A DNA stretch of 64,000 nt, from assembly GCF_000247605.1 (NCBI RefSeq), contig NC_016894.1, positions 1,725,732 through 1,789,731 on the forward strand. Reading direction: 5' to 3'. This document shows, piece after piece, positions 4,675 through 27,618 of the stretch. Both the position numbers and the translations under genes were made by a program. The stretch's first letter is position 1, and every line of letters starts with the position of its first letter. This stretch comes from Acetobacterium woodii DSM 1030 (GTDB lineage: Bacteria; Bacillota; Clostridia; Eubacteriales; Eubacteriaceae). The notes beneath the pieces are model-generated. The model worked only from the letters and a program-made list of their open reading frames with translations, did not search any database and had not been told where the DNA came from.

Positions 4675-4722
4675 TTGTCTTGTTGGAATAACAGAAAAAA
4701 GGCTCTGAATAAAGCATGACAA

Positions 4723-6522: not shown

Positions 6523-6567
6523 AATTTTAAGAATTAATGGCTAAGGGGAATTAATCCCCATTAGAGG

Positions 6568-6745
6568 TTGTCGATAAACGACCGTACCGATCAATTGTTA
6601 ATCTGTTGCATGCACGCAATTCGTACAGTTGCAATTAAAGCTTTGGTTAAAGACAGCCTTTTCGCTGCAACAGTTCGCTGTACAGTGTAGAAATTGTTTT
6701 GCGAGAAACTGGGCCTAAAGCTCACGGCATTTTCGCAATTATCTA
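6568..6745 (+). repeat. Chimeric palindromic element: left part family 2, right part family 1
   Basis: The left part (about 6568-6670) matches, inverted, the element at 44007-44186, including an identical 28-base stretch (6594-6621 against 44130-44157). The right part (about 6670-6745; CGCTGTACAGTG through CGCAATTATCTA) matches the right half of the family 1 copies at 15042-15206 and 28590-28755. It lies between the kinase and the alcohol dehydrogenase, and may be a recombination or nested-insertion product. Confidence 0.7.
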
Positions 6746-6769
6746 CTAGGATAGAAACAAGGAGGAGTT

Positions 6770-7921: not shown

Positions 7922-7987
7922 GTAAATTTAAAATCATTTTAGATTGTATTTGTGTATTTGGGATAAAGTATGGGACAAGGAGTTCGT

Positions 7988-8788: not shown

Positions 8789-8800
8789 AAAAACAAAAAA

Positions 8801-8831
8801 ACACTATTTCAAAATGAATAGTGTTTTTTTA
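8801..8831. terminator. Bidirectional terminator between convergent operons
   Basis: Stem ACACTATT/AATAGTGT (8801-8808 with 8817-8824) is flanked by an A-run on the left and T7 on the right, serving both the HAD gene (plus) and activase 1 (minus). Confidence 0.85.
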
Positions 8832-8870
8832 AGCGGTCGCATCTTAAGTGGCTCAGGGAGTCCCGAAGAA

Positions 8871-9830: not shown

Positions 9831-9866
9831 AATGTTCTCCAAATCATTTATTTTTAAGATTCTTCC

Positions 9867-12543: not shown

Positions 12544-15006
12544 TTAAAGAGCACAATGCTCTGTTCTGGAGATGAAATCATCCTGTAAAACTTTAGGCAT
12601 TTCCACAAAATAGACTGAAAAACCGGCAATGCGTACGATTAGATTACGATATTCATCAGGATTTTCCTGAGCCTGATAAAGTGTTTGAGTGTCCACAACG
12701 TTAAACTGGACTTCCATGCCGCCATTTTCAAAGTAAGTCGTAATTAATTGACGAAGCTTCTCAACACCTTCTTTATTAGCGACACAAGAAGGACTGAAAC
12801 GGAGGTTCATCTGATCGCCATTGCCTAAGATGCTTTGCGGTAGTTTAGAAACAGTATTAAGATAGGAAATAACCCCATTTCGATCAAAACCTTGTCGGGA
12901 AGAGATCGCTTCAGCAAGTGCTTCACCTTTTCGTCGGCCATCAGGAGTTGCAGCAGTTTTGGAACCATAATCAACATGGACTGTCATGGTGAAGGTTCCA
13001 AAAGCCCAATTACCGCCTCGCGGATTGGTAGCTGCGGAAACATAGTTGTTAGCTAAATTCATAACCCATGCGGCAAGTTCATCAACCTCATCAATGTCAT
13101 TTCCGTAATGAGGAATATCAAAAACAATGGTTTGATAAAGTGATTCATATCCTTCCCAATTTGCACACAAAGCCTCGTAAAGTTCTTTGGTCGTAACGAT
13201 TTTATCATCAAAGCATAATTTTTTGATCGCAATCAGACAATCAGCAACATTGCCGATTCCGCAACCAGTCAAACCAGTAGAATTGTATTTGCAGCCGCCT
13301 GAGAGCGCATCTTTTCCGCTTTCTACACAGCCGTCCATTGTTGTAGAGGCAACAACGGCGGGGAAATGATCGGCATACATTAATTCAAAACAATTTCCGC
13401 CGGTAATCTGCCAATCGAGGAAATATTTCAATTGGGCAGCGAATGCTTCCTTGAAGGCTTCAAAAGTTTGGTAATCGTAGAGATAACCGGTTTTAAGACC
13501 TCTTTTGAAGCCGGTAAGCGGATTTTCACCGTTATGGATTGCCATAATGATGGGTCCCAGAAGGTTAAAGAAAACTTCAGAACCAGGACCACCACTGGCA
13601 GACCATTCATTTCCTGAACCGGATGGTTCGACACATCCGATGATGCAGTAGTCGCGAGCATCTTCTAGGGTTCGTCCGCGTTTGACAAGCATGGGGATGA
13701 TAAGCTCATCATTTTCGAAGGAGGGGACCCCACCGCAGGCTTTGCTCGATTCAATCGCTAATTCCCACACATCGGAAGGTGTGTTTTTATGGATACGGAT
13801 GTCGACAGAAGGGTCAGCAAGAAACATGCGACCAGTGGTATGAAGGAGACATCTTGTTAAAACGTTTGAGGCATCGGTGCCATTTTTTTTAACACCGCCG
13901 ATGGTGAAGTGGTGACCACCGGTGTTATACGAATAACCTTTGCCACTGTACATTTTTGACAGCATATCGTTGCTACTCATGCGAACTTGGATAAGATTGT
14001 CATTTAATTTAAGGAAGAAAGCATCTGAATAATCCTGGAGCGTTGCCATTGTGAGCGTTCCTAATTTTAACTCATTTTCAGCAAACCAGCCGGCGTATTG
14101 ATCAACTCGACCTTGTGATAACCCATGTTGCTGACCGTCGGCAACAAGCATTAACTGGTAGAGAATAACCGCTTGTAGGGCTTCCCAGGTATTACGAGCC
14201 GGATTTTCCATGATCCAATTAAGCGAATCAGCCATGTTAAGCAGTTCCGTTTTACGCTCTGGATTAGCGTGGTTCTCAGCTTGGCGGGCGCATTCCTGAG
14301 CATATCGTTTAGAAAAAATGATCGCGGCATCACAAACGATATCGGTAGCCTGATAAAAGAGAAATTTAGCGGCGTCATTTCCATAGATTTGCCCTTGGAG
14401 TTGATCAATTTTTTGGCGAATTTCTCTTTTAATACTACCAAATCCTTCAGCAATGACTTTCTGATAGTTGGGACTATAATGGCCCTGAGGAACACCACCT
14501 AAATTAGGTTTGCGGGCAAAAAAATCTGAGCATCCGTTTCCTTGAAAATTTTGAAGAAACGGTGGAATAATTTCAAGATAACGTGCTGATAGTGATCGAT
14601 CGATCCAGTATTCGGAAGCCTCTTTAAAAATCTCCCGATCGGAGTCACTCATGTAGGCAAAGGAATCTTTACTTTGCCAGGCGGTTTTAAAGTTATTATC
14701 ATCATCATGAGAGGCTTGATGAAGCCAAGTCGCATCCCACTCAACGAAGCTGTTTAGAGCCCGGTAGGTGCGACCGAGCTGCCCTACAAAAATATCCTCA
14801 TCTTCAACTAAAATGGTTTTATTTGAGCACCACTCATAAAGACAATGAGCGCGTTTTAAAATGTTGGGTTCGGCTTCATGAGCTTTATAGTAGTCAGTAT
14901 ATATTTTGGTTCGCTCACCATCCAGAATAGTCCGCCCTTTATTGGCAGCACTGCGTTTGTCGCGCAAGACTTGAATTCTTGGACTTACTGCAGCAAATTT
15001 AAACAT
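12544..15006 (-). CDS. Glycyl radical enzyme 2 (eliminase/decarboxylase class)
   Basis: An 820-residue GRE paralogous to GRE1 and GRE3. The active-site motif is GCVEPS (Cys458, Glu460) and the radical motif is RIAGFSV (Gly795), in a complete C-terminal glycine-radical domain. The second conserved Cys-containing stretch (DGCVESGKDALSGGCKYNS) is also present, as in GRE1 (TGCMEKGKDIQSGGAKYNS). Length fits the dehydratase/lyase group (about 790-850). AGGAGGTAATT precedes the ATG. It lies 255 bases downstream of activase 2, with a palindromic mobile element inserted in the gap. Substrate not assignable from sequence alone. Confidence 0.93.
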   Translation of the reverse strand: MFKFAAVSPRIQVLRDKRSAANKGRTILDGERTKIYTDYYKAHEAEPNILKRAHCLYEWCSNKTILVEDEDIFVGQLGRTYRALNSFVEWDATWLHQASHDDDNNFKTAWQSKDSFAYMSDSDREIFKEASEYWIDRSLSARYLEIIPPFLQNFQGNGCSDFFARKPNLGGVPQGHYSPNYQKVIAEGFGSIKREIRQKIDQLQGQIYGNDAAKFLFYQATDIVCDAAIIFSKRYAQECARQAENHANPERKTELLNMADSLNWIMENPARNTWEALQAVILYQLMLVADGQQHGLSQGRVDQYAGWFAENELKLGTLTMATLQDYSDAFFLKLNDNLIQVRMSSNDMLSKMYSGKGYSYNTGGHHFTIGGVKKNGTDASNVLTRCLLHTTGRMFLADPSVDIRIHKNTPSDVWELAIESSKACGGVPSFENDELIIPMLVKRGRTLEDARDYCIIGCVEPSGSGNEWSASGGPGSEVFFNLLGPIIMAIHNGENPLTGFKRGLKTGYLYDYQTFEAFKEAFAAQLKYFLDWQITGGNCFELMYADHFPAVVASTTMDGCVESGKDALSGGCKYNSTGLTGCGIGNVADCLIAIKKLCFDDKIVTTKELYEALCANWEGYESLYQTIVFDIPHYGNDIDEVDELAAWVMNLANNYVSAATNPRGGNWAFGTFTMTVHVDYGSKTAATPDGRRKGEALAEAISSRQGFDRNGVISYLNTVSKLPQSILGNGDQMNLRFSPSCVANKEGVEKLRQLITTYFENGGMEVQFNVVDTQTLYQAQENPDEYRNLIVRIAGFSVYFVEMPKVLQDDFISRTEHCAL

Positions 15007-15261: not shown

Positions 15262-16218
15262 TTAGTGTATTTGAATAGGTGTAAAATAGCTTTCTAAGAG
15301 TTGCTTGTATTCTTGCATCACGGCATCGCTTGGCGATTTTAAATGCTTAAGTTCATTTTCTTTTCCCAGTTTATCATATTTGAGAAGGCCCAATTGGTGA
15401 TAGGGAAGTAGTTGGAGCAGCTGGATCGAAGGACCAAGCGCTTTAATGAATTTACCGGTGGCGTGGAGATTTTTTGCAGAATCGTTGACACCTGGAATAA
15501 TCGGAAAACGAAATTGAATTTTTCCGCCAGCGGTAACTAATTTTTGGGCGTTTTCAAGGATCAGTTCATTAGAAACCCCGGTATATTTCTGATGTTGGTT
15601 TGGATCCATATGTTTTAAGTCGTAGAGATATAAATCAACATAAGGGAGGGTTCTTTCCAGTGTTTTCCAAGCAGCAAAGCCGGTTGTGTCTAAACACGTG
15701 TGGATATTTTCATTTTTGGCGGCTTTTAATAACGCAACCGTAAAATCAATTTGTGCGAGGGCCTCGCCGCCGGAGATGGTTAGACCACCGCCGGAGTTAT
15801 TAAAGTAAGCCCGATCTTTTAGAATTCTAGCCATGACATCTTCAAGTTTCATGTCTTTTCCTGAAGCTATAAGGGCTCTTGGCTTGCATACTTGAGTACA
15901 GTCGAGGCAATCGGTGCATTTTTTCCGGTCAACGTCAATAAGAGTAATATCGCTTTCCGACAAAGGTGAATAGTTTGGCTGGCTGGCTTTAATGGCATTT
16001 TTTTTACAAGTCGATAAACACAATCCGCATTTCTCAATGCCAATGCATTTGACTGAAGTATATGAGAGTACATAGTGAAAAGGAACGGATTCTGGATTAT
16101 GACACCAGAGGCAACTTAGCGGACAACCGCTAAGAAAAACACTTGTTCGGATACCTGGACCATCATGAACGGAGAATCCCTGGATGTCATAAATTCGGCC
16201 GATTATTTCTTGACTCAT
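15262..16218 (-). CDS. Glycyl-radical enzyme activating enzyme 2 (radical SAM)
   Basis: A 318-residue radical SAM activase paralogous to activase 1. YDIQGFSVHDGPGIRTSVFL leads into CxxxCxxC (Cys32, Cys36, Cys39), followed by two ferredoxin-like clusters (CIGIEKCGLCLSTCKKNAI and CTDCLDCTQVCKPRAL) and the SAM-binding GGEALAQ. It should generate the glycyl radical on GRE2, the next gene on the same strand, and could also serve GRE3 (18328), which has no adjacent activase. GGGAGGAGAGATATC precedes ATG 16218. It is divergent from the URO-D/GRE3 set across a 0.7-kb spacer. Confidence 0.93.
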   Translation of the reverse strand: MSQEIIGRIYDIQGFSVHDGPGIRTSVFLSGCPLSCLWCHNPESVPFHYVLSYTSVKCIGIEKCGLCLSTCKKNAIKASQPNYSPLSESDITLIDVDRKKCTDCLDCTQVCKPRALIASGKDMKLEDVMARILKDRAYFNNSGGGLTISGGEALAQIDFTVALLKAAKNENIHTCLDTTGFAAWKTLERTLPYVDLYLYDLKHMDPNQHQKYTGVSNELILENAQKLVTAGGKIQFRFPIIPGVNDSAKNLHATGKFIKALGPSIQLLQLLPYHQLGLLKYDKLGKENELKHLKSPSDAVMQEYKQLLESYFTPIQIH

Positions 16219-16444
16219 TGATATCTCTCCTCCCTTGGAGTTTGTACTTGGAGTTTGTAGTAGTTTTAAGATATATTATTTAAAAACGTTTGTTATAATA
16301 AAATTTTATAGCAATGAAACCGTTTAAACAATGATATATCAGGACCAGAAAAAAAAAAACGCGTCCTTACAAGTATTTGGGCAGGGGTTTGCTCAATTAA
16401 AAATTCTTAAATAAGGAATTAATTGTTTGAAACCGGACAAAATG

Positions 16445-16461
16445 GGGACAAAAGATGTCCC
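16445..16461. promoter_or_regulatory. GGGACA-N5-TGTCCC dyad with flanking repeats
   Basis: Perfect dyad GGGACA (16445-16450) and TGTCCC (16456-16461). A further GGACAAAA upstream and GATGTCC downstream repeat the half-sites, giving a cluster of four half-sites just before the promoter at 16482. Candidate operator of the URO-D/GRE3 transcript; the protein could be the AraC regulator at 20976 (inference). Confidence 0.45.
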
Positions 16462-16481
16462 TTTGATGTCCTTTTAATGCA

Positions 16482-16510
16482 TTGTAGAGAATATGTCAAG
16501 TAGTTATAAT
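16482..16510 (+). promoter_or_regulatory. Likely sigma-A promoter for the URO-D/GRE3 set
   Basis: TTGTAG (16482-16487), a 17-base spacer and a perfect TATAAT (16505-16510), about 400 bases upstream of the URO-D gene. Confidence 0.55.
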
Positions 16511-16600
16511 TAAGTTAATTCAATTTATTTTGGAAAATTATAAAATTTTACAAATGAATCGGTAAATATAAAACGACAAGAAAGGAGACAACCGGGCAAA

Positions 16601-16684
16601 ATGAAAACGATTAAATATAGTTATTTGGGCAATAAATACGACCTCCATTGCAAGTGGAAAGGGAAATTTGGGGCAGACGAATGA
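16601..16684 (+). CDS. Short ORF (27 residues), possible leader peptide or gene remnant
   Basis: ATG 16601 is preceded by AAAGGAGACAACCGGGCAAA and opens a 27-codon frame (MKTIKYSYLGNKYDLHCKWK...) ending in TGA at 16682. It lies between the promoter at 16482 and the SDR relic, in the same reading frame as the relic. It may be translated as a leader, or be part of the same decayed region. I recognise no family. Confidence 0.3.
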   Translation: MKTIKYSYLGNKYDLHCKWKGKFGADE

Positions 16685-16748
16685 TTAAGTCGTGAAGGTT
16701 GGGGTGATCAGGATGATAAAGATATTGAGTAAGGAACCAATAAGTGAA

Positions 16749-16873
16749 GAAATCCGCTGAAACATGGCAGAAAAACTGATTTGGTTGCCGAGGCAGTATG
16801 GTTCTTGGCAGCCAATCAAGGATCGTCTATTATGAGCGATGTTTTTAATGTAAACGGTGGAATGCATGTCTAA
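16749..16873 (+). pseudogene. C-terminal relic of a short-chain dehydrogenase/reductase
   Basis: The frame ending at TAA 16871 reads RNPLKHGRKTDLVAEAVWFL then AANQGSSIMSDVFNVNGGMHV. This is a textbook SDR C-terminus (PLxRxG, AVxFLAS, SxxITGxxxxVDGGM). In-frame stops at 16730 and 16745 cut it off and no N-terminal Rossmann domain is present upstream, so only about 40 codons of a lost oxidoreductase gene survive. It lies 38 bases before the URO-D gene. Confidence 0.75.
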
Positions 16874-16911
16874 ATTAAATAAAAAAAGCCGCATGGTAGA
16901 GGAGTAATGAT

Positions 16912-18075
16912 ATGACGAAAGAAATATTAAGTACAGAGTATAAAACACAACTATTTACGGATATTTATTCAGGAAATAAGCCGGATCGAGTTCCTGAAAA
17001 AGTGGGCGTTAACGCTTGCGCGGCGTTAGAATTAGCCGGTTATGATCTGCGATATGCACAATATGGAATTACAAAGGTATTGGATGCAACGGAGAAAATA
17101 AATGCAAAATATAATACCTATACTTTAATTGGAACATGGCCGGGAACACCATGGTTGAATAAATTCACCGGAAGTCGAACAAATGTAATGGGTGATGATG
17201 GTTTTATACAGCATCCCAATGTTCATGGAATGGAATCGGATGAATACGATCAGCTTTTGGCAGACCCATTGAAATTTATTTGGGAAACGGTAATTCCGAG
17301 GATATTTACAGAGTTTGATGCCCCGCCAATGAAAGCGGCGCTAGCGATGGCGAAAACAATTAAGGCTTCAGATCATATAAACGGAAAAATAGCTCAAGGA
17401 AATATCGCCCTTATGAAAAAATATAACAAGTCGACATTTCCGACTTTTGTGGGAATCAGCCGTGCCCCTTTCGATTATCTGGCAGATTATCTCAGATCAT
17501 TTACTGGAGCACTGGTAGATATGAGAAGAAAGCCGAACGAAGTACTTGAAGCCGTTAACCTGATTACACCGTTGATGATAAAATCGGGTTGTCCGAGACA
17601 GATAGAGAATCCAAACAGATTGTCCAGAATTTTCTTTGCACTTCATATGCCGACTTTTATGTCTGAGAAATTTTTTGCAAAATTCTGGTGGCCTTCTTTT
17701 AAAGAAACGGTATGGGCAATTTATGAAAAAGGTTTTGGAATAAATATATTTTGCGAAGAAAACTGGATGCATTTACTGGATTATTTAAATGAACTGCCAC
17801 CAGGTTGTGAACTTCAATTTGAGTATGGTGATCCTAAAATGATCAAAGAAAAAGTTGGTGATCGACATATTATCTCAGGACTTTTTCCAGTAAGTATTAT
17901 GAAAAGTGGAACAAAACAGGAAGTATGTGATAAGGCTAAGGAATATTTGGACATCCTTGCAGTGGATGGCAAGTATATATTTAATTTTGACAAATCGATT
18001 TTAACCGCAACACAAATAAATTGGGATCTTTTTCAACCACTCTTAGACACTGTTCATGAATACGGAAGGAATTAG
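16912..18075 (+). CDS. URO-D superfamily protein 1 (uroporphyrinogen decarboxylase/methyltransferase fold)
   Basis: A 387-residue TIM-barrel protein related to uroporphyrinogen decarboxylase and MtaA/MtbA-type methyltransferases. The classical zinc motif of those methyltransferases (His-x-Cys and a late Cys) is not kept: the equivalent stretch reads NIFCEENW (Cys281, Glu282, Glu283) and the late site reads NFDKS. Other conserved blocks are QFEYGDP, SGLFP and LHMPTFM, shared with the paralogue at 62560. Glu283, Glu304 and His319 are spaced 20 and 14 residues apart and could form an alternative Glu/Glu/His metal site. No corrinoid protein is adjacent. GAGGAG precedes the ATG. It heads the set with the 51-aa protein and GRE3. 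Not true HemE; function unknown. Confidence 0.8.
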   Translation: MTKEILSTEYKTQLFTDIYSGNKPDRVPEKVGVNACAALELAGYDLRYAQYGITKVLDATEKINAKYNTYTLIGTWPGTPWLNKFTGSRTNVMGDDGFIQHPNVHGMESDEYDQLLADPLKFIWETVIPRIFTEFDAPPMKAALAMAKTIKASDHINGKIAQGNIALMKKYNKSTFPTFVGISRAPFDYLADYLRSFTGALVDMRRKPNEVLEAVNLITPLMIKSGCPRQIENPNRLSRIFFALHMPTFMSEKFFAKFWWPSFKETVWAIYEKGFGINIFCEENWMHLLDYLNELPPGCELQFEYGDPKMIKEKVGDRHIISGLFPVSIMKSGTKQEVCDKAKEYLDILAVDGKYIFNFDKSILTATQINWDLFQPLLDTVHEYGRN

Positions 18076-18085
18076 GAGGCATATT

Positions 18086-18241
18086 ATGGATAAAAAAATT
18101 ATAAGTGAATATTATACTGAATTGGATGAGACTTTGAAAAAATATGGAATTCCGGAAGAAGCGAAAGACGATGTTGCTGAGACAATGCAATGTATCGAGG
18201 ATATGATTCTTTATTTTACAATGACAACCTTAAGTAACTAA
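18086..18241 (+). CDS. Small acidic protein (51 residues) between URO-D protein and GRE3
   Basis: ATG 18086 has AGGAGG 6 bases upstream, starts 10 bases after the URO-D stop and ends 86 bases before GRE3, so it is very likely translated in the same operon. The product is acidic, predicted helical (ISEYYTELDETLKKYGIPEE; DVAETMQCIEDMILYF) and has a single Cys. It does not look like the Cys-rich small subunit of 4-hydroxyphenylacetate decarboxylase or like the small subunits of benzylsuccinate synthase as I remember them. I recognise no family. Position suggests an accessory subunit or chaperone of GRE3 or of the URO-D protein. Confidence 0.7.
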   Translation: MDKKIISEYYTELDETLKKYGIPEEAKDDVAETMQCIEDMILYFTMTTLSN

Positions 18242-18327
18242 GTACAATACTGGCACCTCGAAATACATTAAACGCTCGGTATTAATGATTTTATTGAATT
18301 TAGAATGTAGATAAAGAAGGAGCTATC

Positions 18328-20772
18328 ATGTATGAATTTAAACCTGTAACAGAACGAATAAACCAGATGAGACAGCTTATTAGAGACCGAGTTATTGCGG
18401 TCGATGCTGAAAGGGTAGAGCTGATAACTAACGCATACCAAGAATGGGATAAAGTTCCCCCCAGTATAAAAATGGCTTTAGTCACGCATGAAATTTGCAC
18501 AAATATGACAACGAGAGTCGAAGACTTTGAAATAATCGTCGGAAATATCGGAAAAGAGTTTTTAGGTTCAGGTATGTGGCCGGAATGGGATGCCAGTTGG
18601 TTGTGGAATGAACTGGAAAAAAAGGAGCTTTGGGAATGTTGGGATGATGGATTGTACCACCGTACTGACAAATCCGGGGTTCATTTAAGTATGAGTAAAG
18701 ACGAGATTGAACGGTTTATGAGTTATCGTGATTTCTGGAAAGATAAAACCATTACCCAGTATTTAGATTCATGGGGACCTGACGGCTTTGAAGAAATTGC
18801 TGGTTTGGGGATTTTAGAAATGGGCGAAAAAATGAGAGCACCCATTCAAACCGGACATCTGGTTGCCGGTTATGAGAAAATCATTAATAAAGGTTATGGA
18901 ACTATTAGACGCGAAGCTCAGAATTGGATTGACACCCATAAAGGGAATCTAATGGGAGATGATGTCGAAAAATACATGTTCTATAAAGGGGCGGTTATCG
19001 TTTGTAATGCCGCAATCGGGATGATCAAAAATTATGCTAAAGCATGTATTTTAAAAGCGGAAGCTTGTCACGATGCCAGTAGGAAAGCAGAACTTAAAAA
19101 AATGGCGGATGGACTTGAATGGATATCTGAAAATCATGCCAGAACATTTTGGGAGGCTTGCCAGGGTGTAATCATGTATCAGGTTTTGCTCTATATGGAG
19201 GCAAGACACCCGGCCCTTGCATTTGGAAGATTTGATCAATATACATGGCCTTTCCTGGAGGCTGATCTGAAAGAAAAAAGATTGACATTGGACGAGGCAC
19301 AAGAAATAGTCGATGCATTTTTTCTTAAATCGAATTGTTTTTACAGGGCCTCAAATCCCCAAATTGCAGCATATACCGGGGTAGGTGTTACCTACCATCA
19401 TACAACCATTGGTGGGGTAAATAAAATAACCGGTGAAGATGCCTCAAATCCAGTAACCTATATGGTCCTTGAAACGTTGGAGCGACTATCACTTCATGAT
19501 CCGACCGTATCGTTGCGGATCCATAAAAATTCACCTGAAAAACTATGGGATTTAGCAATTGAGACGACGCGAAAGGTTGGCGGATTACCGTTGTTTCAAA
19601 ATGATGAGGAAATTATTCCCGGTCTTGTAAAAGAACTGGGTATGACCATTCAGGATGCCAGAGATTATAGCATCATTGGTTGTCAGGAAATCGTTGGATC
19701 AGGGAATGATTATCCGGCCGGGAATGGTCTTCATGGAAAAGCCGGATTAGGAAGCCATGGGAATGTTTTGCTGACGGCTTTAAATAATGGGGTGAATCCT
19801 TCTAATGGAAAAGCGGGAGGGTTAGAGACCGGATATCTTTATGAGATGAAGTCGTTTGATGCCGTAAAAGGAGCATATAAAACCCAATTTGATTATCTCC
19901 ATAAATGGTCTGTCACCATTCAAAATTATGTTGAAAACCTTTCCGGATTTTATGCACCTTCACCAGCTTTATCCATTTCTATAGAAGGATGTATGGAGTC
20001 GGGTAAGGATTGTACGATGGGTGGTGCTAAATATAATTCCTATGGAGGGACAGCTACCGGTTTGGCTACTGTAGCCGACTCGTTGACGGCGATCAAATAT
20101 ATGGTGTTTGATCAGAAAATTTGTACCGCAAAAAATATTTATGACGCAATGATGGCCGATTGGAAAGGCTATGAAGTATTGCAACAGCAGATTTTAAATG
20201 AAGTTCCCCATTATGGAAACGATGATGAGTATGCCGACGAAATGATGAAGTGGGTTACGGATATCTATTATGATAATTGTCAGGAATGTTATAGTAAACG
20301 CTCTAAATTTTATAAAGCAGGACTTTATGGAGCTGCTCAACATGTTGTTCAAGGTGCTGTTACCCAAGCGACTCCCGACGGCAGAAATGCTGGTCAACCA
20401 TTGGCGGATGCCATGTCACCCGGACAGGGAAGAGATAAAAATGGGCCAACTGCTATTTACAATTCAGCCTGTTGTATAAACCACGGAAAATATATGGATG
20501 GAATCGCACTGAACTTGAAAATTCATCCGTCATCGTTACAAACGACAAGTGCGAAAAAAGCATTACTGAATATGACAAAAGCTTATTTTGAAAAAGGCGG
20601 AATGGAGGTTCAATATAACGTAGTAAGCACCGAAACAATGCGAGCCGCACAAAAAGATCCCAATGCTTACAGAGACCTCGTGGTAAGAATTGCCGGTTAC
20701 TCAGCTTACTTTAACGAGTTGAGTGAGGCGATGCAAAATGATGTAATAAGCAGAAATGAAGTAGAGATTTGA
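18328..20772 (+). CDS. Glycyl radical enzyme 3 (divergent, GCQE active site)
   Basis: An 814-residue GRE. The radical site is RIAGYSA (Gly790) and the active-site motif is GCQEIV (Cys452, Glu454): the CxE pair is kept but the V and P of the usual GCVEP are replaced by Q and I. The substrate-side loop after it (GSGNDYPAGNGLHGKAG) also differs from GRE1 and GRE2. The EGCMESGKDCTMGGAKYNS block is kept. AAGGAG precedes ATG 18328. No activase gene is adjacent on this strand; activase 2 lies 2.1 kb away on the other strand. Association with a URO-D-fold protein and a 51-residue protein is unusual for a GRE. Substrate unknown. Confidence 0.92.
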   Translation: MYEFKPVTERINQMRQLIRDRVIAVDAERVELITNAYQEWDKVPPSIKMALVTHEICTNMTTRVEDFEIIVGNIGKEFLGSGMWPEWDASWLWNELEKKELWECWDDGLYHRTDKSGVHLSMSKDEIERFMSYRDFWKDKTITQYLDSWGPDGFEEIAGLGILEMGEKMRAPIQTGHLVAGYEKIINKGYGTIRREAQNWIDTHKGNLMGDDVEKYMFYKGAVIVCNAAIGMIKNYAKACILKAEACHDASRKAELKKMADGLEWISENHARTFWEACQGVIMYQVLLYMEARHPALAFGRFDQYTWPFLEADLKEKRLTLDEAQEIVDAFFLKSNCFYRASNPQIAAYTGVGVTYHHTTIGGVNKITGEDASNPVTYMVLETLERLSLHDPTVSLRIHKNSPEKLWDLAIETTRKVGGLPLFQNDEEIIPGLVKELGMTIQDARDYSIIGCQEIVGSGNDYPAGNGLHGKAGLGSHGNVLLTALNNGVNPSNGKAGGLETGYLYEMKSFDAVKGAYKTQFDYLHKWSVTIQNYVENLSGFYAPSPALSISIEGCMESGKDCTMGGAKYNSYGGTATGLATVADSLTAIKYMVFDQKICTAKNIYDAMMADWKGYEVLQQQILNEVPHYGNDDEYADEMMKWVTDIYYDNCQECYSKRSKFYKAGLYGAAQHVVQGAVTQATPDGRNAGQPLADAMSPGQGRDKNGPTAIYNSACCINHGKYMDGIALNLKIHPSSLQTTSAKKALLNMTKAYFEKGGMEVQYNVVSTETMRAAQKDPNAYRDLVVRIAGYSAYFNELSEAMQNDVISRNEVEI

Positions 20773-20975
20773 TAATTTAGGTCGTAATGTCGAGTTCGGA
20801 TTAAGAAGAAGTTCATCTGAGGAGGTGCTCATAATAGGTCTTATTTTTTTAGCAATTCAATGAAAATAGAATAACAATGCAAAAAAAAGATAAGATATGG
20901 TATAATTGTGACAAATTATAGATGCAAACGATTTCTGCTTGCATGGGAATAATTAATAAAAACAGGAGGGCTAAA

Positions 20976-21977
20976 ATGAGTTATTCATTTGATGAGCGCA
21001 GAAGATATAATGATTTGATGGGAACATACATGATATTATCTTATGACTCTTACAGTATTGTAATCCATAATAGCCAGTTTATGAACCAGGATCATATTGA
21101 ATTCCCACACAGTCACGATTTCCATGAACTTTATTATGTGTTAAACGGCCGAATGGTTGTTATCTGTGATGGCAAAGAATTGGAACTTGAGAAAAATGAT
21201 ACGCTTTATTTGGCACCCAATGTTGATCATAATATGAAGACAGATACTTTTTATGGAAATGAGCGATTTCTGATTACCTTTGAAATAATAAAAAACAAAT
21301 GTGATGATAGCAAAATGACAGCATTGGAATATCAAATTGATGAAATGATTACGATCTTAAAAAATAGTGGCAAATTTTCGGTATCTAAAGATACCAATAA
21401 TGTAATCGCATTGATCGATGACCTTTGCGGAGAGTTTCTCAATAGACAGCATTTTTATTATTTGAAGCTTCAAGGATTAATATCACTTATATTAATGAGC
21501 ATGATTCAAAATATAATTAATGGAAAAGATAATGGACTAAATGATTATTTAGAATATGAAAATAGAGCACTGCTTATGACAAAGTATATTCATAATAATA
21601 TTGGTGAAAAAATAACACTTGAAAAAATGGCAGTAATTTTTCATACCACACCTCGACATGTTAACCGAATATTTAAAAAGTATTTCAATACGTCTTTTAA
21701 CAAAACATTGCTGGAAATCAGATTGGGATATGCCAAAAGATATCTGGTTGAGTATGATTGTTCAATTGAAAAAATAGCAGAGCTAGTCGGATTTGATTCA
21801 GTTAGGACATTATATAAACTTTTTAAAGAAAAAGAGTTCATGAGTATGAACGAATATCGTAATAAGTATCTAGGTAAGTTGAATTTCAGTGCTGATAAAT
21901 TTAATTTTGATAACCATATTTCTGCAGTAAAGGCTAAAAAATTCAAAAATTCGGTACCTGAAAAAGTATTGTTTTAA
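20976..21977 (+). CDS. AraC-family transcriptional regulator with cupin sensor domain
   Basis: A 333-residue regulator: an N-terminal cupin-like domain (about 15-110, with HSHDFHELYYVLNGRMVVIC and LYLAPNVDHNMKT) followed by a C-terminal pair of AraC helix-turn-helix motifs (about 200-300, KITLEKMAVIFHTTPRHVNR and CSIEKIAELVGFDSVRTLYK). ATG 20976 is chosen for its AGGAGG 6 bases upstream; a TATAAT at 20901-20906 fits a separate promoter. It lies between GRE3 and the Mop-like oxidoreductase and probably responds to the pathway substrate, activating one or both sets. Confidence 0.9.
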   Translation: MSYSFDERRRYNDLMGTYMILSYDSYSIVIHNSQFMNQDHIEFPHSHDFHELYYVLNGRMVVICDGKELELEKNDTLYLAPNVDHNMKTDTFYGNERFLITFEIIKNKCDDSKMTALEYQIDEMITILKNSGKFSVSKDTNNVIALIDDLCGEFLNRQHFYYLKLQGLISLILMSMIQNIINGKDNGLNDYLEYENRALLMTKYIHNNIGEKITLEKMAVIFHTTPRHVNRIFKKYFNTSFNKTLLEIRLGYAKRYLVEYDCSIEKIAELVGFDSVRTLYKLFKEKEFMSMNEYRNKYLGKLNFSADKFNFDNHISAVKAKKFKNSVPEKVLF

Positions 21978-22060
21978 AATAAGTAACCAAATGAAAATAA
22001 TTAAAGCGAATTTTGCGTTTCCAATGGTTAGCGTGGATTCTTATTTCAAAATATTATATT

Positions 22061-22166
22061 TAGGTAATTGCGAAAGTGCGATGAGCTTGGGGCCCAGTTT
22101 CGCACGAAACAATTTCTGCACCCAAAGCAACCGTTGTTCGATGTTTTTCAATTTCACAATGACTTA
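22061..22166. mobile_element. MITE-like palindromic element, family 1, internally deleted, reverse orientation
   Basis: A 106-base copy in inverse orientation: GGTAATTGCG, then AGCTTGGGGCCCAGTTTCGC, then CACCCAAAGCAACCGTTG. The central hairpin and about 60 bases around it are missing. It is flanked by a 12-bp direct repeat AAATATTATATT (22049-22060 and 22067-22078 after removal of the element, that is 22167-22178). It lies directly before the ribosome binding site of the Mop-like gene, so it is part of that leader. Confidence 0.82.
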
Positions 22167-22193
22167 AAATATTATATTCATAAGGAGAAAAAA

Positions 22194-25022
22194 ATGGCGA
22201 AAAGAAAAATGATGTTGTTAATTAATGGCGCAGAACGGATGTTAGTTTGTGACCAAGAGTCGGATACGCTGTCTGATGTATTAAGACGGATTGGTTTAAC
22301 AGGGACTAAGGTTGGTTGCGGAACCGGCCAATGTGGGGCGTGTTCAGTGATCCTTGATGGCAAGGTTATTCGTTCCTGCACAAAAAAGATGAAAAATGTT
22401 GAATATGGCAGTGAAATAACAACGATTGAGGGAATTGGTTCACCAACACATCTACACCCTCTTCAACTGGCCTGGATTGTTTATGGCGGGGTACAATGTG
22501 GATTTTGTACGCCGGGATTTATCGTTTCGGCAAAAGGTCTTCTTGATATAAATCCAAGTCCGACCAGACAGGAAGTCCGGGACTGGTTCCAAAAACATCG
22601 TAATGCCTGTCGTTGTACCGGCTATAAACCTCTTGTTGATGCCGTAATGGCGGCGGCAAAAGTAATTCGGGGCGAAATGACGATGGAAGAATTGAGCTTT
22701 GATATACCTGAAGATGGACGCATTTATAATACCAGGTATCCAAGACCGGCGGCTTTGGCGAAAGTAACGGGGGTGTGTGATTATGGTGATGATATCGGCA
22801 TGAAAATGCCGGAAGCACTCCATCTTGCGGTTGTATTGGCACGGGTTTCTCATGCCAAACTGTTAGCGATTGATACATCAGAAGCAGAACAGATGCCGGG
22901 AGTCGAAAAAGTAATAACACATAAAGATGTTAAAGGCATTAATCGCATTACTTTTCCAGTTGGTGGGGCCCGGGCCAAAGCAAATGGATTTGATCATGAA
23001 ATCTTAGTGTCTGACAAGATATATAGATATGGCGATATTGTCGCTGTTGTAGCCGCACGAACGAAGAAAGAAGCGCGGGCAGCGGCAGAAAAAGTCACAT
23101 TTGAATACGAACAGTTGCCAGAATATTTGAATATCCTTGAAACCATGGCAATTGATGCACCACAGATCAATCCGGAATACCCGAACATATATATTGAAGC
23201 ACCACTTGTTAAAGGACAGGATACCAGAGAAGTGATTAAAAATTCAGCCCATGTGGTTGAAGGCAGTTTTTATTCTCAACGACAGCCGCATCTTGTTATT
23301 GAACCGGATACTGATCAGGCATATTTTGACGATGAAGGCCGTCTGACCATACAATGCAAAAGTTTAGCCCTTGGTCTGACCCAGGGCGTTATTGGTGCCG
23401 GCATTGGATTCCCGGTGGAGAAGATTAGAATTATTGAAAATCCGACTGGGGCCAGTTTTGGCTATGCCATTTCACCACTGATGCCGGCAATTGTGGCCGT
23501 GGCAACCATGGCGACTGAAAAACCGGTGACGATTACGCTCAGCTATGAAGAACATCAGCATATTACCGGGAAGCGGGCACCAGCTTTCTCAAATGGAAAA
23601 CTTGCCTGTGATGAAAAAGGAAAACTGACAGCAATGGAATATGAAATAGCCTATGATAAAGGATCTTGTACGGAGGCAGCGGATGTACTCATTCAGAAAG
23701 GTCTGCGTTTTATGGGGGCACCTTACGCCATCCCCAATGCCATAGGTCTCTCCAAAGCGGTTATTTCCAATCATGCACATTCAACAGCCTATCGAGGGTT
23801 TGGTTCGCCGCAGTGTTACACTTGTTCGGAGCAGCTCATGGATATGCTGGCCGAAAAAGTTGGCATGGACCCATTGGAGTTCCGCTATATCAACGTTTAT
23901 CGAGAAGGTGATCGCAGCCTGAATGGGAATCAATTCGATACTTATCCGATGGTTGAGATATTGGATAAGCTGAGACCACATTATCAGGAAGCGATGGCAA
24001 GAGCAAAAAAAGAATCCACTCCTGAACGAAAAAGAGGGGTGGGGATTGCCAGTGGTGAATACAATGTCACCAGTGGTCCGAATGATCATGCCGAGGTTGC
24101 GTTAGGACTCAATCCCGATGGAACCGTGACGCACTATAACACTTGGGAGGATCAGGGCCAGGGGGCAGATATTGGCACGCTTGTGCATACTCATGAAGCA
24201 CTCAAACCACTGGGATTACGACCGGATCAGATTCATTTGTGCATGAATGATACAGCACTGGCTCCGATTACCGGACCGGCAGCGGGGAGTCGTTCTCACT
24301 ACATGGCCGGTAATGCAACAATTAATGCGGCTGAACAACTGATGAACGCCATGCGTAAAGAAGATGGTACTTACCGGACCTATGATGAAATGGTCAGTGC
24401 CGGGATTCCCACAAAATATTTAGGGATCTCGGATACGACCGGACAAACGACGGATCTTGACCCGAATACCGGTCAGGGAAATCCCACCGCCGAGTATACT
24501 TTTGGCGTATTTATGGCAGAGGTTGAGGTTGAAGTCGCTACTGGAAAGACTACCGTGCTCAGCATAAAATGTATTGCTGATGTTGGTGTCGTTGGTAATT
24601 TTTTAGCAGTTGAAGGCCAGGCTTTTGGCGGAATGGAACACGGGATTGGGATGGCGTTATCAGAGGATTATGATGATATTCAAAAACATACCAGTCTCAT
24701 TGGCAGCGGATTTCCATTTATTAATACGATTCCGGACAATATAAGTATTGAATTTATCGAAACGCCGAGACCGACAGGACCGCACGGTTCGTCGGGCTGT
24801 GCTGAAGCTTTCCAGAGTTCGCCGCATGTCGCTGTTATCAATGGCATTTATAATGCCTGCGGCGTGAGAATTAAAGAATTACCGGCCCGACCGGAAAAGG
24901 TAAAGGCGCTGTTAGCAGCGAAAGCAGAAGGCCGTGAAATAGAAGATAAGAAATATTTCCTCGGTTCTGATTTGCACGAGACAATTGATTACATTAAAGC
25001 AAACCCAGTGACGGTTGGGTAA
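22194..25022 (+). CDS. Mop-like molybdenum aldehyde oxidoreductase (xanthine oxidase family)
   Basis: A 942-residue single-chain molybdenum hydroxylase. The N-terminal [2Fe-2S] domain (Cys42, Cys47, Cys50, Cys62 in GCGTGQCGACS...RSC) is followed by the helical [2Fe-2S] domain (QCGFCTPGF...CRCTGY) and the large molybdopterin-binding domain (from about residue 190) with the late active-site glutamate in GCAEAFQSS. There is no FAD domain, as in Desulfovibrio aldehyde oxidoreductase (Mop, about 907 aa). It should oxidise aldehydes to acids and pass electrons out through the 2Fe-2S centres. ATG 22194 has AAGGAG upstream; earlier in-frame ATG codons lie within the mobile element. The next two genes are its likely electron-transfer partners. 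Confidence 0.9.
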   Translation: MAKRKMMLLINGAERMLVCDQESDTLSDVLRRIGLTGTKVGCGTGQCGACSVILDGKVIRSCTKKMKNVEYGSEITTIEGIGSPTHLHPLQLAWIVYGGVQCGFCTPGFIVSAKGLLDINPSPTRQEVRDWFQKHRNACRCTGYKPLVDAVMAAAKVIRGEMTMEELSFDIPEDGRIYNTRYPRPAALAKVTGVCDYGDDIGMKMPEALHLAVVLARVSHAKLLAIDTSEAEQMPGVEKVITHKDVKGINRITFPVGGARAKANGFDHEILVSDKIYRYGDIVAVVAARTKKEARAAAEKVTFEYEQLPEYLNILETMAIDAPQINPEYPNIYIEAPLVKGQDTREVIKNSAHVVEGSFYSQRQPHLVIEPDTDQAYFDDEGRLTIQCKSLALGLTQGVIGAGIGFPVEKIRIIENPTGASFGYAISPLMPAIVAVATMATEKPVTITLSYEEHQHITGKRAPAFSNGKLACDEKGKLTAMEYEIAYDKGSCTEAADVLIQKGLRFMGAPYAIPNAIGLSKAVISNHAHSTAYRGFGSPQCYTCSEQLMDMLAEKVGMDPLEFRYINVYREGDRSLNGNQFDTYPMVEILDKLRPHYQEAMARAKKESTPERKRGVGIASGEYNVTSGPNDHAEVALGLNPDGTVTHYNTWEDQGQGADIGTLVHTHEALKPLGLRPDQIHLCMNDTALAPITGPAAGSRSHYMAGNATINAAEQLMNAMRKEDGTYRTYDEMVSAGIPTKYLGISDTTGQTTDLDPNTGQGNPTAEYTFGVFMAEVEVEVATGKTTVLSIKCIADVGVVGNFLAVEGQAFGGMEHGIGMALSEDYDDIQKHTSLIGSGFPFINTIPDNISIEFIETPRPTGPHGSSGCAEAFQSSPHVAVINGIYNACGVRIKELPARPEKVKALLAAKAEGREIEDKKYFLGSDLHETIDYIKANPVTVG

Positions 25023-25053
25023 TTTGATAAAATTAATTTAATCATTTAATGAC

Positions 25054-25100
25054 ATAACAGTGGCAATATTTATTGATATTGCCACTGTTATAAATTTTTT
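25054..25100 (+). terminator. Terminator after the Mop-like gene
   Basis: Perfect 16-bp stem (25054-25069 with 25076-25091), 6-base loop, then AAATTTTTT. It may give partial read-through into the Fe-S flavoprotein gene 27 bases further on. Confidence 0.8.
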
Positions 25101-25126
25101 AAAATTAAACCAATGAGGACAATGTT

Positions 25127-27415
25127 ATGGATATGATGACACTTGAAAATTTGAAAAAAAAATGTACCAGAGATGAACCGGTATTTTGTACAAACCAGTG
25201 CCCTCTTAGTGTTGACGTAAAAAAACTGGCGGCCAGGATTGCTTCAGGAGATTTTCAAGGGGCTTATAAATATTATAGCAGTCAGGTGATTTTTCCGGAG
25301 ATTATCAGCAGACTTTGTGATAAACCCTGCCAAACAGTTTGTTTAAGATCAAAAATAGATGAAGTAGTAGCGGTTAAAAACCTAGAGCAGGCTTGTTGTG
25401 ATTACGTTGATACAAAAGAAACGTCCCAATATTACATCTCCCGAAAAAATAAACATATCGCCGTTATCGGGGGAGGACTTGGCGGATTGAGTTGCGCTGT
25501 TAAATTAGCTAGAAAAGGCTATGCGGTTGATCTATATGAAGAAAAAGATGGTTTGGGAGGATATTTAAGGGAATCAGAAAATTTGATTCCACTCCAGATT
25601 ATCGAAAAAGAATTAGCCCGAATCATTCAGAAAGAAGAGATCAGACTGCATTTAGGCACGAAAATAAACACCCTTGATGAAATTGAATGTGACGCGCTTT
25701 ACATTGCAACAGGATGGGACGGTAATGGCTTTGGCTTAAAACCAGGATTTGATCCAGTTTCTCTGGGCACATTGAGGAAGGGCGCGTTTATTAGTGGAAG
25801 CATAATGAAGCGAAGCGAAAGTTCAGTTTTAATTCCGGTGCGGGAAGGGATTCGGGTTGCGCAAGCGATTGAAAATTATTTAAAAATTGGAACAATGGGC
25901 GGGATGGCCGGCTGTCATGAGGTGGTTCCATCACGACTCAGCGTGGATATCGATGGGGTGGTGTTTGAAAAGCAGATAGTGGCTGAAAATCAAGAATCAT
26001 ACACGATACCGGAAGCGATAGCAGAGGCAAAAAGATGTCTTCAATGCGGGTGTGATATGTGCATGAATTCCTGTGAGATGTTGTCGTTTTTTGAAAAAAA
26101 TCCTAAAAAAATCATCGATGATGTTGAAGCTTCGATGAATATCGTAAAAGCATTTACGACAAATATTGCTTCCCGGGAAATTAACTCTTGTAATACCTGT
26201 GGTTTATGTAAAGAGGTGTGTCCGGAAAATATTGATTTTGAAGAATTGTTTATGTCCAGTCGAAGAGTTCTGCACAAAGGTGGCAAGCTACCACTGGCTT
26301 TTCACGATTTTTGGATGCGGGATATGGAATTTTCCAACTCGGAAGAAGCATTTGTGATGATAAATGCCAATGGCGGCGATAAAAGCAGTTATCTTTTTTT
26401 TTCAGGGTGTCAGCTGGGAGGCTCTGATCCGAATTATGTCATCAATGCCTATACCTATCTAAAAAAGCATCTTGAGGAAGAACCAGCGATGATGATTGGA
26501 TGTTGTGGTGCCCCGGCGCAGTGGGCCGGCAGAGAAGATGAACATCGGGCAGTAATTGATTGGATCAGAAATATTTGGGAAAATCAGGGAAGACCGGAAG
26601 TAATTTTGGCCTGTCCTTCCTGTCGGAAAATGTTTGAAAAATATCTGCCTGAAATACAAGTGCAATCGCTTTGGCAGGTAATGGCAGCGCAGGAAAATAG
26701 TGTAAATAAAAGCGTTGCAAGTAAAAAAATGACGATATTTGATCCTTGTGCCAGCCGCTATGATCCAGAAACTCAGAATAGTATAAGAATTATTCTAAAA
26801 AATTCAGGCTACGAGCTGGAGGAATTGCCTTATTACCCCGGGAAGGTTCAATGTTGTGGTTATGGGGGCCAGATTCAGGCAGTAAATAGGCCTCTTTTTG
26901 ATAAAATTGTGAAGATTCGGGTCGAAGCGACAACGCATGATTATGTTACCTATTGTACCAATTGTCGAGACACTTTTGCAGCCGCTGGCAAATCAGCGGT
27001 TCATATTCTTGATTTGCTCTTTAGTGACGATATCACGGCCAGCGCAGCCAGAAAACCACCGACGTTGACTCAGCGTAGAGAAAACCGGATTAAGCTAAAA
27101 AAGGTGCTTGAGACAGAAAGAGAAGGAATGAAAATGGCGTCCGAAGATAAGCCGATAAAGAAAATCAAGGTCTTTATTGCCCCGGAAGTTTATAATAAAA
27201 TGGACCGAAGTTTTATTTTAAAGGAAGATGTTCAGAGGACGATCGAGTATTGCGAATCAACCGAGAAAAAGATCATGGATATGTCAACCGGGAATTTTAT
27301 CGGTCATCTCCAGGATGGAAACATCACCTTTTGGGTTATATACAAACCTGAAAGAGATGGATTCCGGTTGGAAACTGTTTATAGTCATCGGCTCGTAATA
27401 GAGGAGGGCTTGTGA
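25127..27415 (+). CDS. Pyridine nucleotide-disulfide oxidoreductase / CCG dicluster-binding fusion protein
   Basis: A 762-residue modular redox protein. In order: a GltD-type N-terminal Fe-S domain (CTNQCP...CDKPCQTVC, about 1-90), an FAD/NAD-binding domain starting at VIGGGLGGLS (about 108), two Cys clusters (CLQCGCDMC and CNTCGLCKEVCPEN, about 305-370), two CCG domains (CCGAPAQWAG and CCGYGGQ), and an 80-residue C-terminal domain. This matches the architecture of the protein encoded beside Mop in Desulfovibrio (DVU_1558 family), and likely moves electrons between the aldehyde oxidoreductase and NAD(P) or a quinone- or disulfide-like acceptor. It overlaps the next gene by one base. Confidence 0.85.
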   Translation: MDMMTLENLKKKCTRDEPVFCTNQCPLSVDVKKLAARIASGDFQGAYKYYSSQVIFPEIISRLCDKPCQTVCLRSKIDEVVAVKNLEQACCDYVDTKETSQYYISRKNKHIAVIGGGLGGLSCAVKLARKGYAVDLYEEKDGLGGYLRESENLIPLQIIEKELARIIQKEEIRLHLGTKINTLDEIECDALYIATGWDGNGFGLKPGFDPVSLGTLRKGAFISGSIMKRSESSVLIPVREGIRVAQAIENYLKIGTMGGMAGCHEVVPSRLSVDIDGVVFEKQIVAENQESYTIPEAIAEAKRCLQCGCDMCMNSCEMLSFFEKNPKKIIDDVEASMNIVKAFTTNIASREINSCNTCGLCKEVCPENIDFEELFMSSRRVLHKGGKLPLAFHDFWMRDMEFSNSEEAFVMINANGGDKSSYLFFSGCQLGGSDPNYVINAYTYLKKHLEEEPAMMIGCCGAPAQWAGREDEHRAVIDWIRNIWENQGRPEVILACPSCRKMFEKYLPEIQVQSLWQVMAAQENSVNKSVASKKMTIFDPCASRYDPETQNSIRIILKNSGYELEELPYYPGKVQCCGYGGQIQAVNRPLFDKIVKIRVEATTHDYVTYCTNCRDTFAAAGKSAVHILDLLFSDDITASAARKPPTLTQRRENRIKLKKVLETEREGMKMASEDKPIKKIKVFIAPEVYNKMDRSFILKEDVQRTIEYCESTEKKIMDMSTGNFIGHLQDGNITFWVIYKPERDGFRLETVYSHRLVIEEGL

Positions 27416-27618
27416 TGAGCGAAGTTGAAAAAAGTTCGACATTAATTTGTCTGAAATGTAATGTTCCGCTAAAAATGCAGACAAATAAATTTTCATATCT
27501 CGGTTTTAATTTTAATACCGAAATCCCAACATGTCCTCGTTGTGGATTGATGTTTTTATCCGAGGAACTGGTTAAGGGAAAGGTAACAGAAGTGGAAAAG
27601 GGGCTTGAAGATAAGTAA
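27415..27618 (+). CDS. Small CxxC redox/zinc-ribbon protein (DVU_1557-like)
   Basis: A 67-residue protein with two Cys pairs, CLKC (about residue 12) and CPRC (about 42), like a zinc ribbon or rubredoxin-type site. Its start overlaps the previous stop (TGATG) and GAGGAGGG lies just upstream, indicating translational coupling. In Desulfovibrio a comparable small redox protein (DVU_1557) follows the same two genes, so it is probably part of the aldehyde oxidoreductase electron-transfer unit. The role is inferred from context. Confidence 0.75.
   Translation: MSEVEKSSTLICLKCNVPLKMQTNKFSYLGFNFNTEIPTCPRCGLMFLSEELVKGKVTEVEKGLEDK

Follow-up and report, generated by a model that had tools for sequence, protein, structure and literature searches.

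A gene list covering positions 16482..27618 of a 64,000-nucleotide stretch of the genome of Acetobacterium woodii DSM 1030 (NC_016894.1, one contig of 4,044,777 bp) raises the question of which of its genes belong together and what chemistry they might serve. We refer to the whole stretch as the window, and coordinates given without a locus number are positions in it. The original prediction, made from the sequence, had joined seven genes into one new module, and their open reading frames (ORFs) and families were verified, all on the + strand. They fall into two blocks. Block 1 comprises a URO-D-fold protein, a 51-aa protein (SML), a glycyl radical enzyme (GRE3) and an AraC-family regulator; block 2 comprises the molybdopterin aldehyde oxidoreductase Mop, a flavin/CCG protein and a DVU1557 protein. 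Block 1 is a real unit, and the idea of a single seven-gene module was rejected because Mop moves independently of GRE3. We see about an even chance that at the core lies a glycyl radical system coupled to a methyltransferase, in which demethylation would be followed by radical C-O cleavage to an aldehyde or ketone. This proposal rests on sequence, that is, on the gene set, its co-occurrence, a fused small domain, a conserved dyad, a deletion scar and purifying selection, from which we infer a putative methyl transfer, the order of steps, the aldehyde product, the corrinoid partner and the substrate class.

Orthologues of GRE3 (at least 70% identical) and of the URO-D-fold protein (at least 80%) were found in the same 7 of the 67 genomes of the order, with SML directly behind the URO-D gene in all seven. 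The pair adjoined GRE3 in four of them, A. woodii, Acetobacterium bakii, G011 and Alkalibacter mobilis, and its co-retention with GRE3 without linkage in the other three is telling. The conserved pairing of the URO-D-fold protein and the 51-aa protein with GRE3 had been predicted correctly. A comparison of gene neighborhoods had been proposed as a refuting test; it bore out the URO-D half, which co-occurred in 7/7 genomes and was adjacent only in four, but not Mop as an obligate partner.

The link to methyl transfer was assessed by looking for corrinoid-methyltransferase parts within 8 kb of each GRE gene. Such parts were present at all six fetched loci of the order with a GRE3 at least 70% identical, plus the window, and at none of six loci with 48-61% GRE relatives (12 loci in all, the four GRE1-type loci L050-L053 being left out). 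They were also found near 5 of 20 control GREs, a set with probable near-duplicates (L155/L156) and two contigs shorter than 8 kb (L144, L158); the difference between 7/7 and 5/20 gave a Fisher value of 0.0009. Methyltransferase II (MTII) terminates the G011 cluster, MTII, a corrinoid protein and another URO-D protein lie behind GRE3 in G054, and RACo lies behind GRE3 in Alkalibaculum. In a set of 64 named loci, 11 of them less than 10 kb long, a methyltransferase part was present within 8 kb in eight; four of the 64 are the at least 70% genomes again. Six of the eight positive loci group together in a clade of 10 members in the GRE tree (Fisher 4e-7 for 6/6 versus 2/57, L064 left out), a value that is post hoc because the clade was chosen after seeing the data. 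By Pfam, the neighbors of the wider GRE3 relatives included many ordinary genes, such as those for EF-G, PPDK, chemotaxis proteins and a tRNA synthetase.

Pfam gave no match to the URO-D-fold protein up to E=10, and its only clear solved relative was CdmB (9rui; E=3e-22 with the single sequence, E 6e-32 with a 20-sequence profile). The fold assigned by the original prediction thus stands through the relation to CdmB and not through Pfam, and on the same two grounds a true uroporphyrinogen decarboxylase was rejected. An excerpt of PMC13222342 describes CdmB as the chloromethane methyltransferase I (MTI) of A. dehalogenans, a zinc-independent MTI of the URO-D superfamily with a corrinoid-protein partner, and counts aromatic O-demethylases in the MTI superfamily. 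Methyl removal, also suggested earlier, is the best reading of the URO-D protein, judging from its relation to a proven corrinoid MTI.

The best interpretation of the 51-aa protein is as a C-terminal domain that has become detached from such an MTI. A profile was built from 20 sequences, every one taken beside a URO-D gene and sharing the invariant residues S7, Y9, K19, Y20 and E38, and was searched against 398 genomes of the phylum. It matched at 17 places in 15 genomes, two of the matches being A. woodii's own. All 13 free-standing copies lay directly behind a URO-D gene, and the four others were fused to the C terminus of a URO-D protein of ~454 aa; a corrinoid protein or MTII was present on the same ~3-kb stretch in 11/17. 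Among 55 distinct URO-D-like ORFs from all loci, the four fused ones included, 10 were at least 430 aa long. Six of these matched the profile (E 1e-6 to 0.02), and eight matched a second profile built with those six. Our interpretation follows from the constant position of SML, behind or fused to URO-D in 17/17 matches, and from the matching tails of the long ORFs. The remaining two long ORFs, one of them a 461-aa protein encoded at 62560-63945 in the window, carry a C-terminal tail that resembles SML and is unmatched by the profile. A class of ~50-aa proteins would thereby be explained as detached C-terminal domains of methyltransferases.

GRE3 has the PFL-like domain, the active-site cysteine and the C-terminal glycine motif of a glycyl radical enzyme, with C452 and E454 in a G-C-Q-E motif and the radical glycine G790 in RIAGYSA. 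The activase gene ACT2 lies nearby, and an ACT2-type gene is directly upstream of the GRE3 homologues in Alkalibaculum and Sporomusa. Alignment with glycerol dehydratase (1r8w) showed that the catalytic Cys, Glu and Gly and the equivalents of H164 and Y339 are kept, and that H281, S282 and D447 are replaced by Pro, Ala and Gly. Of the glycerol/1,2-diol contact residues H164, H281, S282 and D447, GRE3 therefore keeps H164 alone. GRE3 scored below the curated cut-off of each NCBIfam GRE model that it matched, the equivalog models listed among them (best, 529.9 bits versus 678.2 for TIGR01774), and these cut-offs did not place it among the CutC, HypD, sulfopropanediol dehydratase, PFL or decarboxylase subfamilies. 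The cut-off of the general model TIGR01774 was reached by none of GRE1, GRE2 and GRE3, the three GREs of the window. In a tree of 115 GREs, these three and their relatives grouped into a clade of 91 members (support 1.0), separate from the 24 remaining sequences, among them 1r8w, the sulfopropanediol dehydratase-type control L149 and 18 of the 20 control loci. The clade is deep and has no characterized member in the compared set; only one GRE in the tree has a solved structure. Ten PF00936 matches to bacterial microcompartment shell proteins were found in the genome and none within the window, and a microcompartment-linked GRE was rejected on this basis.

Several observations were made on other members of the clade. 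In G040, the intact GRE3 is adjoined by pieces of another GRE3-like gene (59-65% identical; L043 13399-13837), a decayed duplicate. A DUF169 (COG2043) protein is encoded beside clade GREs in two metagenome-assembled genomes (MAGs; L095 1613-2419 and L117 6366-7187). A flavin reductase of the Old-yellow-enzyme type lies directly behind GRE3-type genes in two gut or rumen bacteria (L092 9758-11773 and L105 14601-16577), which might hint at an unsaturated carbonyl intermediate in these organisms.

Comparison with relatives indicated that the A. woodii operon has been shortened. Genes for a GPH symporter, a 3-hydroxyacyl-CoA dehydrogenase (HADH), a CoA-transferase and an SDR precede URO-D in A. 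bakii, G011 and A. mobilis, with a thiolase gene between those for HADH and the CoA-transferase in A. mobilis and Alkalibaculum. In the latter, URO-D/SML stands with HADH, thiolase, CoA-transferase, SDR and AraC; the transporter beside this operon is only 25% like the symporter, whose 77% orthologue lies by GRE3, as does the ACT2-type activase. The CoA-transferase of the relatives is YdiF-like, and PDB matches showed the SDR to be FabG-like or acetoacetyl-CoA reductase-like. The window segment 16100-16634 matches the end of the A. bakii activase gene and the intergenic region between activase and symporter, and at 16632 the match jumps into the middle of the SDR gene. Symporter, HADH, CoA-transferase and SDR have thus been lost at this locus, and the SDR remnant (16632-16870) carries in-frame stops and a second internal deletion, suggesting that some time has passed since the first deletion. 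In 4/7 genomes, a CoA-transferase reaches at least 75% identity to the A. bakii enzyme, and A. woodii keeps a 54% homologue elsewhere. The thiolase-like gene found behind GRE3 in G011 is absent from A. woodii (20782-20867) and from the same place in A. bakii, so that loss in A. woodii and gain in G011 both fit.

In pairs with A. woodii, dN/dS was 0.04-0.11 for URO-D, SML, GRE3 and GRE2 (0.05-0.08 for URO-D); these retained genes are under purifying selection and therefore probably still used. Computable pairs of other species gave 0.06-0.08, except for SML between A. bakii and G011 (0.25, over 51 codons).

The remnant also bears on regulation, as the promoter region upstream of it is the one that precedes the symporter gene in relatives. 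Of the promoter and dyad behind which the genes had been said to run, the dyad is real and lies at 16435-16471, and the promoter region is that of the deleted symporter gene. The dyad, GGACA-N16-TGTCC, is present in two overlapping copies (16435-16460 and 16446-16471); A. bakii, G011 and A. mobilis each have one copy at the equivalent position. The units are rearranged in A. mobilis, and two of the three exact sites of its genome are ~150 bp before the symporter gene (L024 16783-16808) and ~120 bp before ACT2 (L024 1650-1675), suggesting that ACT2/GRE2 and the GRE3 operon are probably co-regulated there. A. bakii, G011 and A. mobilis likewise have GRE2 next to the operon (84% identical in the last). 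The AraC gene adjoins GRE3 in A. mobilis and is one gene off in G011, and a homologue (56%) precedes HADH in the URO-D operon of Alkalibaculum; it goes with the GRE3/URO-D unit and not with Mop. The original prediction had overlooked the deleted symporter, HADH, CoA-transferase and SDR genes, the likely co-regulation with GRE2 and its activase, and the origin of the 51-aa protein.

Block 2 is a cassette known from NCBIfam (NF045668, NF045663 and NF045645), all three members being adjacent here and above their curated cut-offs. The Mop gene was taken to start at the in-frame ATG at 22194, the mechanical ORF opening at TTG 22068. The cassette occurs in the same order at seven other loci without a GRE match (L054-L060, 15-20 kb each), two of them (L056 and L060) in A. 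woodii itself. It was found behind GRE3 only in A. woodii, after AraC, and in A. bakii, directly, where the contig ends inside Mop (L021 17662-18221); pieces on three other A. bakii contigs match A. woodii Mop at 91-93%, suggesting that the cassette is duplicated. In G011, a 92% identical cassette is located at 3.63 Mb and GRE3 at 2.57 Mb, ~1 Mb apart, and no close Mop copy exists in the other four GRE3 genomes, the best match being 55%, in G054. The G011 and A. bakii copies become homologous to that of A. woodii 14 and 19 bp upstream of Mop, respectively, indicating that the cassette was placed as a unit. The inclusion of Mop and its Fe-S partners in the module is therefore not supported. A terminator-like hairpin of 17 pairs with a T-rich tail lies between the Mop and flavin/CCG genes (25054-25091), in a region with 20 terminator-like sites observed against 8.2 expected; it could attenuate or process the transcript.

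Aldehyde oxidation may nevertheless be a shared step, since AFOR belongs to the cluster of two relatives: it lies behind GRE3 in G011 and is divergent from the symporter gene in A. mobilis, just more than 8 kb from GRE3. Mop or AFOR was found within 8 kb at 2/12 GRE3-clade loci of the order and at 5/64 named loci (L061, which is the A. bakii locus again, L066, L071, L116, which is a GRE1-type match, and L117), against 0/20 control GREs. Oxidation of aldehydes by a Mo/W enzyme thus recurs near the GRE3 family, and Mop is not obligatory. The earlier suggestion that an aldehyde-like GRE product is oxidized by such an enzyme outside a microcompartment appears plausible, given Mop or AFOR in four clusters versus none of the controls and the lack of shell genes in the window, but not with Mop as an obligate partner.

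Taking the relatives' fuller operon as a guide, the symporter would import an O-methylated, or possibly otherwise methyl-bearing, compound, and the URO-D protein and SML would pass its methyl group to a corrinoid protein supplied in trans and on to the Wood-Ljungdahl pathway. The demethylated skeleton would be the substrate (or product) of GRE3, which would act with GRE2, be activated by ACT2, and cleave a C-O bond by radical chemistry to yield an aldehyde or ketone. AFOR would then oxidize the carbonyl product, the YdiF-like CoA-transferase would activate the acid, HADH and the FabG-like SDR would oxidize either enantiomer of a 3-hydroxyacyl-CoA, and the thiolase-family enzyme would give acetyl-CoA. 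A terminal 1,2,3-triol or 2-ether-1,3-diol, R-CH(OH)-CH(OX)-CH2OH, may be converted by the GRE to R-CH(OH)-CH2-CHO, which would need exactly oxidation, CoA transfer, 3-hydroxyacyl-CoA oxidation and thiolysis; with such a substrate, neither a hydratase nor an acyl-CoA dehydrogenase would be required. Cleavage of methylated triols or ethers without a hydratase is thus predicted. In A. woodii, demethylation, the GRE and AraC would have been kept, the transporter and CoA-transferase/HADH/SDR steps lost at the locus, and CoA-dependent cleavage would take place elsewhere; the Mop behind block 1 could perform the aldehyde step. Aromatic, polyol and aryl-ether compounds are all possible as the methyl-bearing class. 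In a lignin variant of the scheme, URO-D/SML would demethylate lignin-derived methoxylated compounds, and GRE2/GRE3 would cleave beta-aryl-ether or arylglycerol side chains in acetogens, turning Ar-CH(OH)-CH(OX)-CH2OH (X = H or aryl) into Ar-CH(OH)-CH2-CHO; AFOR or Mop, CoA-transferase, HADH/SDR and thiolase would lead to aroyl-CoA and acetyl-CoA. We hold this variant to be a long shot. If true, it would represent a radical route to anaerobic beta-ether cleavage.

A number of points weigh against a methyltransferase-coupled radical system. The seven genomes are related, and their co-occurrences are not seven independent events; URO-D and GRE3 are far apart in three of them (76 kb in Alkalibaculum sporogenes, ~324 kb in G040, separate contigs in G054). 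The five positive controls reflect the many copies of methyltransferase genes in those genomes, and among the 60 named loci that remain after removal of the at least 70% genomes (32-67% GRE relatives), only four had a part (L065, L070, L090 and L105), indicating that the wider GRE3 family does not go with methyl transfer. The MTII and RACo queries of the 8-kb test came from two of the tested loci, and RACo was the sole part found at the Alkalibaculum GRE3 locus. No corrinoid protein or MTII was seen in the window; PF02607 corrinoid-domain matches number 26 elsewhere in the genome. Similarity to CdmB spans only residues ~107-383 of the URO-D protein. In Alkalibaculum, G040 and G054, dyad sites were not at the URO-D or GRE3 loci, and chance sites numbered 1-6 per genome, compared with 0-4 for a reversed control pattern. 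No thiolase was seen in the A. bakii locus, the divergently placed thiolase-family protein of G011 is below the NCBIfam cut-off (170.9 versus 240.55), and in three of the seven GRE3 genomes no CoA-transferase reaches 75% identity to the A. bakii enzyme.

Other explanations were weighed for the same genes. Mop and its partners may be unrelated to GRE3, forming a general aldehyde-oxidizing cassette whose position after the GRE3 unit in two species of Acetobacterium is a coincidence. The GRE-free cassette loci, the ~1-Mb distance in G011, the homology edge just before Mop and the hairpin after it all fit this view, to which we give slightly less than an even chance; against it, GRE3-type GREs of Sporomusa acidovorans (L066) and of two Clostridiales MAGs (L071 and L117) have a Mop cassette within 8 kb, AFOR lies equally near GRE3 in G011, and neither enzyme was found at the 20 controls. 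The loss of four operon genes, the lack of a thiolase gene at the locus and the stops in the SDR fragment could mean that the A. woodii unit is a decaying, functionless remnant. We consider this very unlikely, as URO-D, SML and GRE3 are open, their dN/dS values are much like those of pairs without A. woodii, and the scar indicates that the first deletion is not very recent.

Two rivals concern the substrate. In phloroglucinol-type degradation of methoxylated aromatic acids, O-demethylation, decarboxylation and reduction are followed by hydrolysis and CoA-dependent cleavage of the ring. In a route of this kind, the GREs would strip ring hydroxyls from reduced intermediates, and the CoA-transferase, HADH, thiolase and SDR set of the relatives would suit it, as would the UbiD-family decarboxylase gene that in Alkalibaculum adjoins the 77% symporter orthologue by GRE3, and the membership of aromatic O-demethylases in the MTI superfamily (excerpt of PMC13222342). 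As the leading idea, this route was rejected because the SDR is FabG/acetoacetyl-CoA reductase-like, and it was kept as a rival. No ring hydrolase could be recognized in the operon, the Alkalibaculum symporter and GRE3 are separated by serine dehydratase genes, and among the 60 of 125 PDB matches listed none was named phloroglucinol reductase, whose presence in the library was not checked; we regard ring opening as quite unlikely. An O-methylated polyol, cyclitol or sugar, imported by the symporter, demethylated and dehydrated by the GREs, is also unlikely, if less so. The symporter is of the GPH family (PF13347), and GRE1 stands beside FGGY kinase, aldolase, Fe-ADH and HAD genes in the window (see below); symporters of this cluster also adjoin other URO-D paralogues, however, so that the family is no proof of a sugar, and GRE3 lacks the three polar residues of glycerol dehydratase (H281, S282 and D447) that contact glycerol.

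Features of the locus, with positions in the window
Feature	Position	Strand	Basis
GRE2, second glycyl radical enzyme, divergent from the module	12544..15006	-	PFL-like and Gly_radical domains
ACT2, radical-SAM activase for GREs	15262..16218	-	TIGR02494, 332.8 bits (cut-off 174.35)
Operator-like dyad GGACA-N16-TGTCC in two overlapping copies, separating the ACT2/GRE2 unit from the GRE3 unit, which diverge	16435..16471	+	
Deletion scar, SDR pseudogene fragment	16632..16870	+	blastn/tblastn against A. bakii and G011
URO-D-fold protein, putative corrinoid-dependent methyltransferase I	16912..18075	+	CdmB 9rui match
SML, 51-aa protein	18086..18241	+	probable detached C-terminal domain of methyltransferase I
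GRE3, glycyl radical enzyme	18328..20772	+	PFL-like E 2.4e-156, Gly_radical 2e-29
AraC-family regulator	20922..21977	+	HTH_18 and cupin domains
Mop, single-chain molybdopterin aldehyde oxidoreductase	22194..25022	+	NF045668, 1332.3 bits (cut-off 1100)
Flavin/dicluster/CCG oxidoreductase, Mop partner	25127..27415	+	NF045663, 806.4 (cut-off 530)
DVU_1557 family small redox protein, Mop partner	27412..27618	+	NF045645, 78.3 (cut-off 60)

The third GRE of the window, GRE1, has its own activase and lies within 3955-12290 beside genes for a DeoC/LacD aldolase, an FGGY kinase, an Fe-ADH and a HAD protein. A GRE1/activase pair (75%/73%) was also found near a GRE3 homologue and a Mop cassette in a Clostridiales MAG (L117).

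Under the methyltransferase-coupled reading, a part of the uncharacterized deep GRE clade, which also has members in rumen and other gut MAGs, would be tied to corrinoid methyl transfer, and this tie would offer a concrete handle on the chemistry of the clade in cultured acetogens. The open-licence library that was searched had no paper joining a GRE with AFOR and thiolase, or a GRE with aryl ethers and lignin under anaerobic conditions; for GRE, uroporphyrinogen decarboxylase and methyltransferase, PMC9888536 was the sole match, and in the parts concerned it handles its GRE and its UroD-like protein in separate sections. GRE3 resembles the B12-independent glycerol dehydratase 1r8w and the CxE dehydratases, with 34% identity over an 808-column alignment and the conserved residues named above, but differs from them in the three substitutions, in V->Q in GC-x-E and in its separate deep clade. 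Block 2 is an ordinary member of the NCBIfam cassette, and its position behind a GRE alone is unusual. Like CdmBCA and the O-demethylases MtvB, OdmB, VdmB and MtoB, the locus encodes a putative URO-D-fold MTI, paralogues of which sit with a corrinoid protein and/or MTII; unlike them, it has a short MTI with its C-terminal domain as a separate 51-aa protein, a link to a GRE, and no corrinoid protein or MTII beside the MTI in the window. The RdhUVWX cluster of Desulfitobacterium hafniense is reported to be tied to organohalide respiration, and the part of PMC9888536 that describes it names no GRE there. As described in that part, the cluster combines a corrinoid protein, a UroD-like protein, a MeTr and a 48-aa protein for which no similarity is known, and by this description its UroD-like and ~50-aa proteins look like the same pairing as URO-D and SML.

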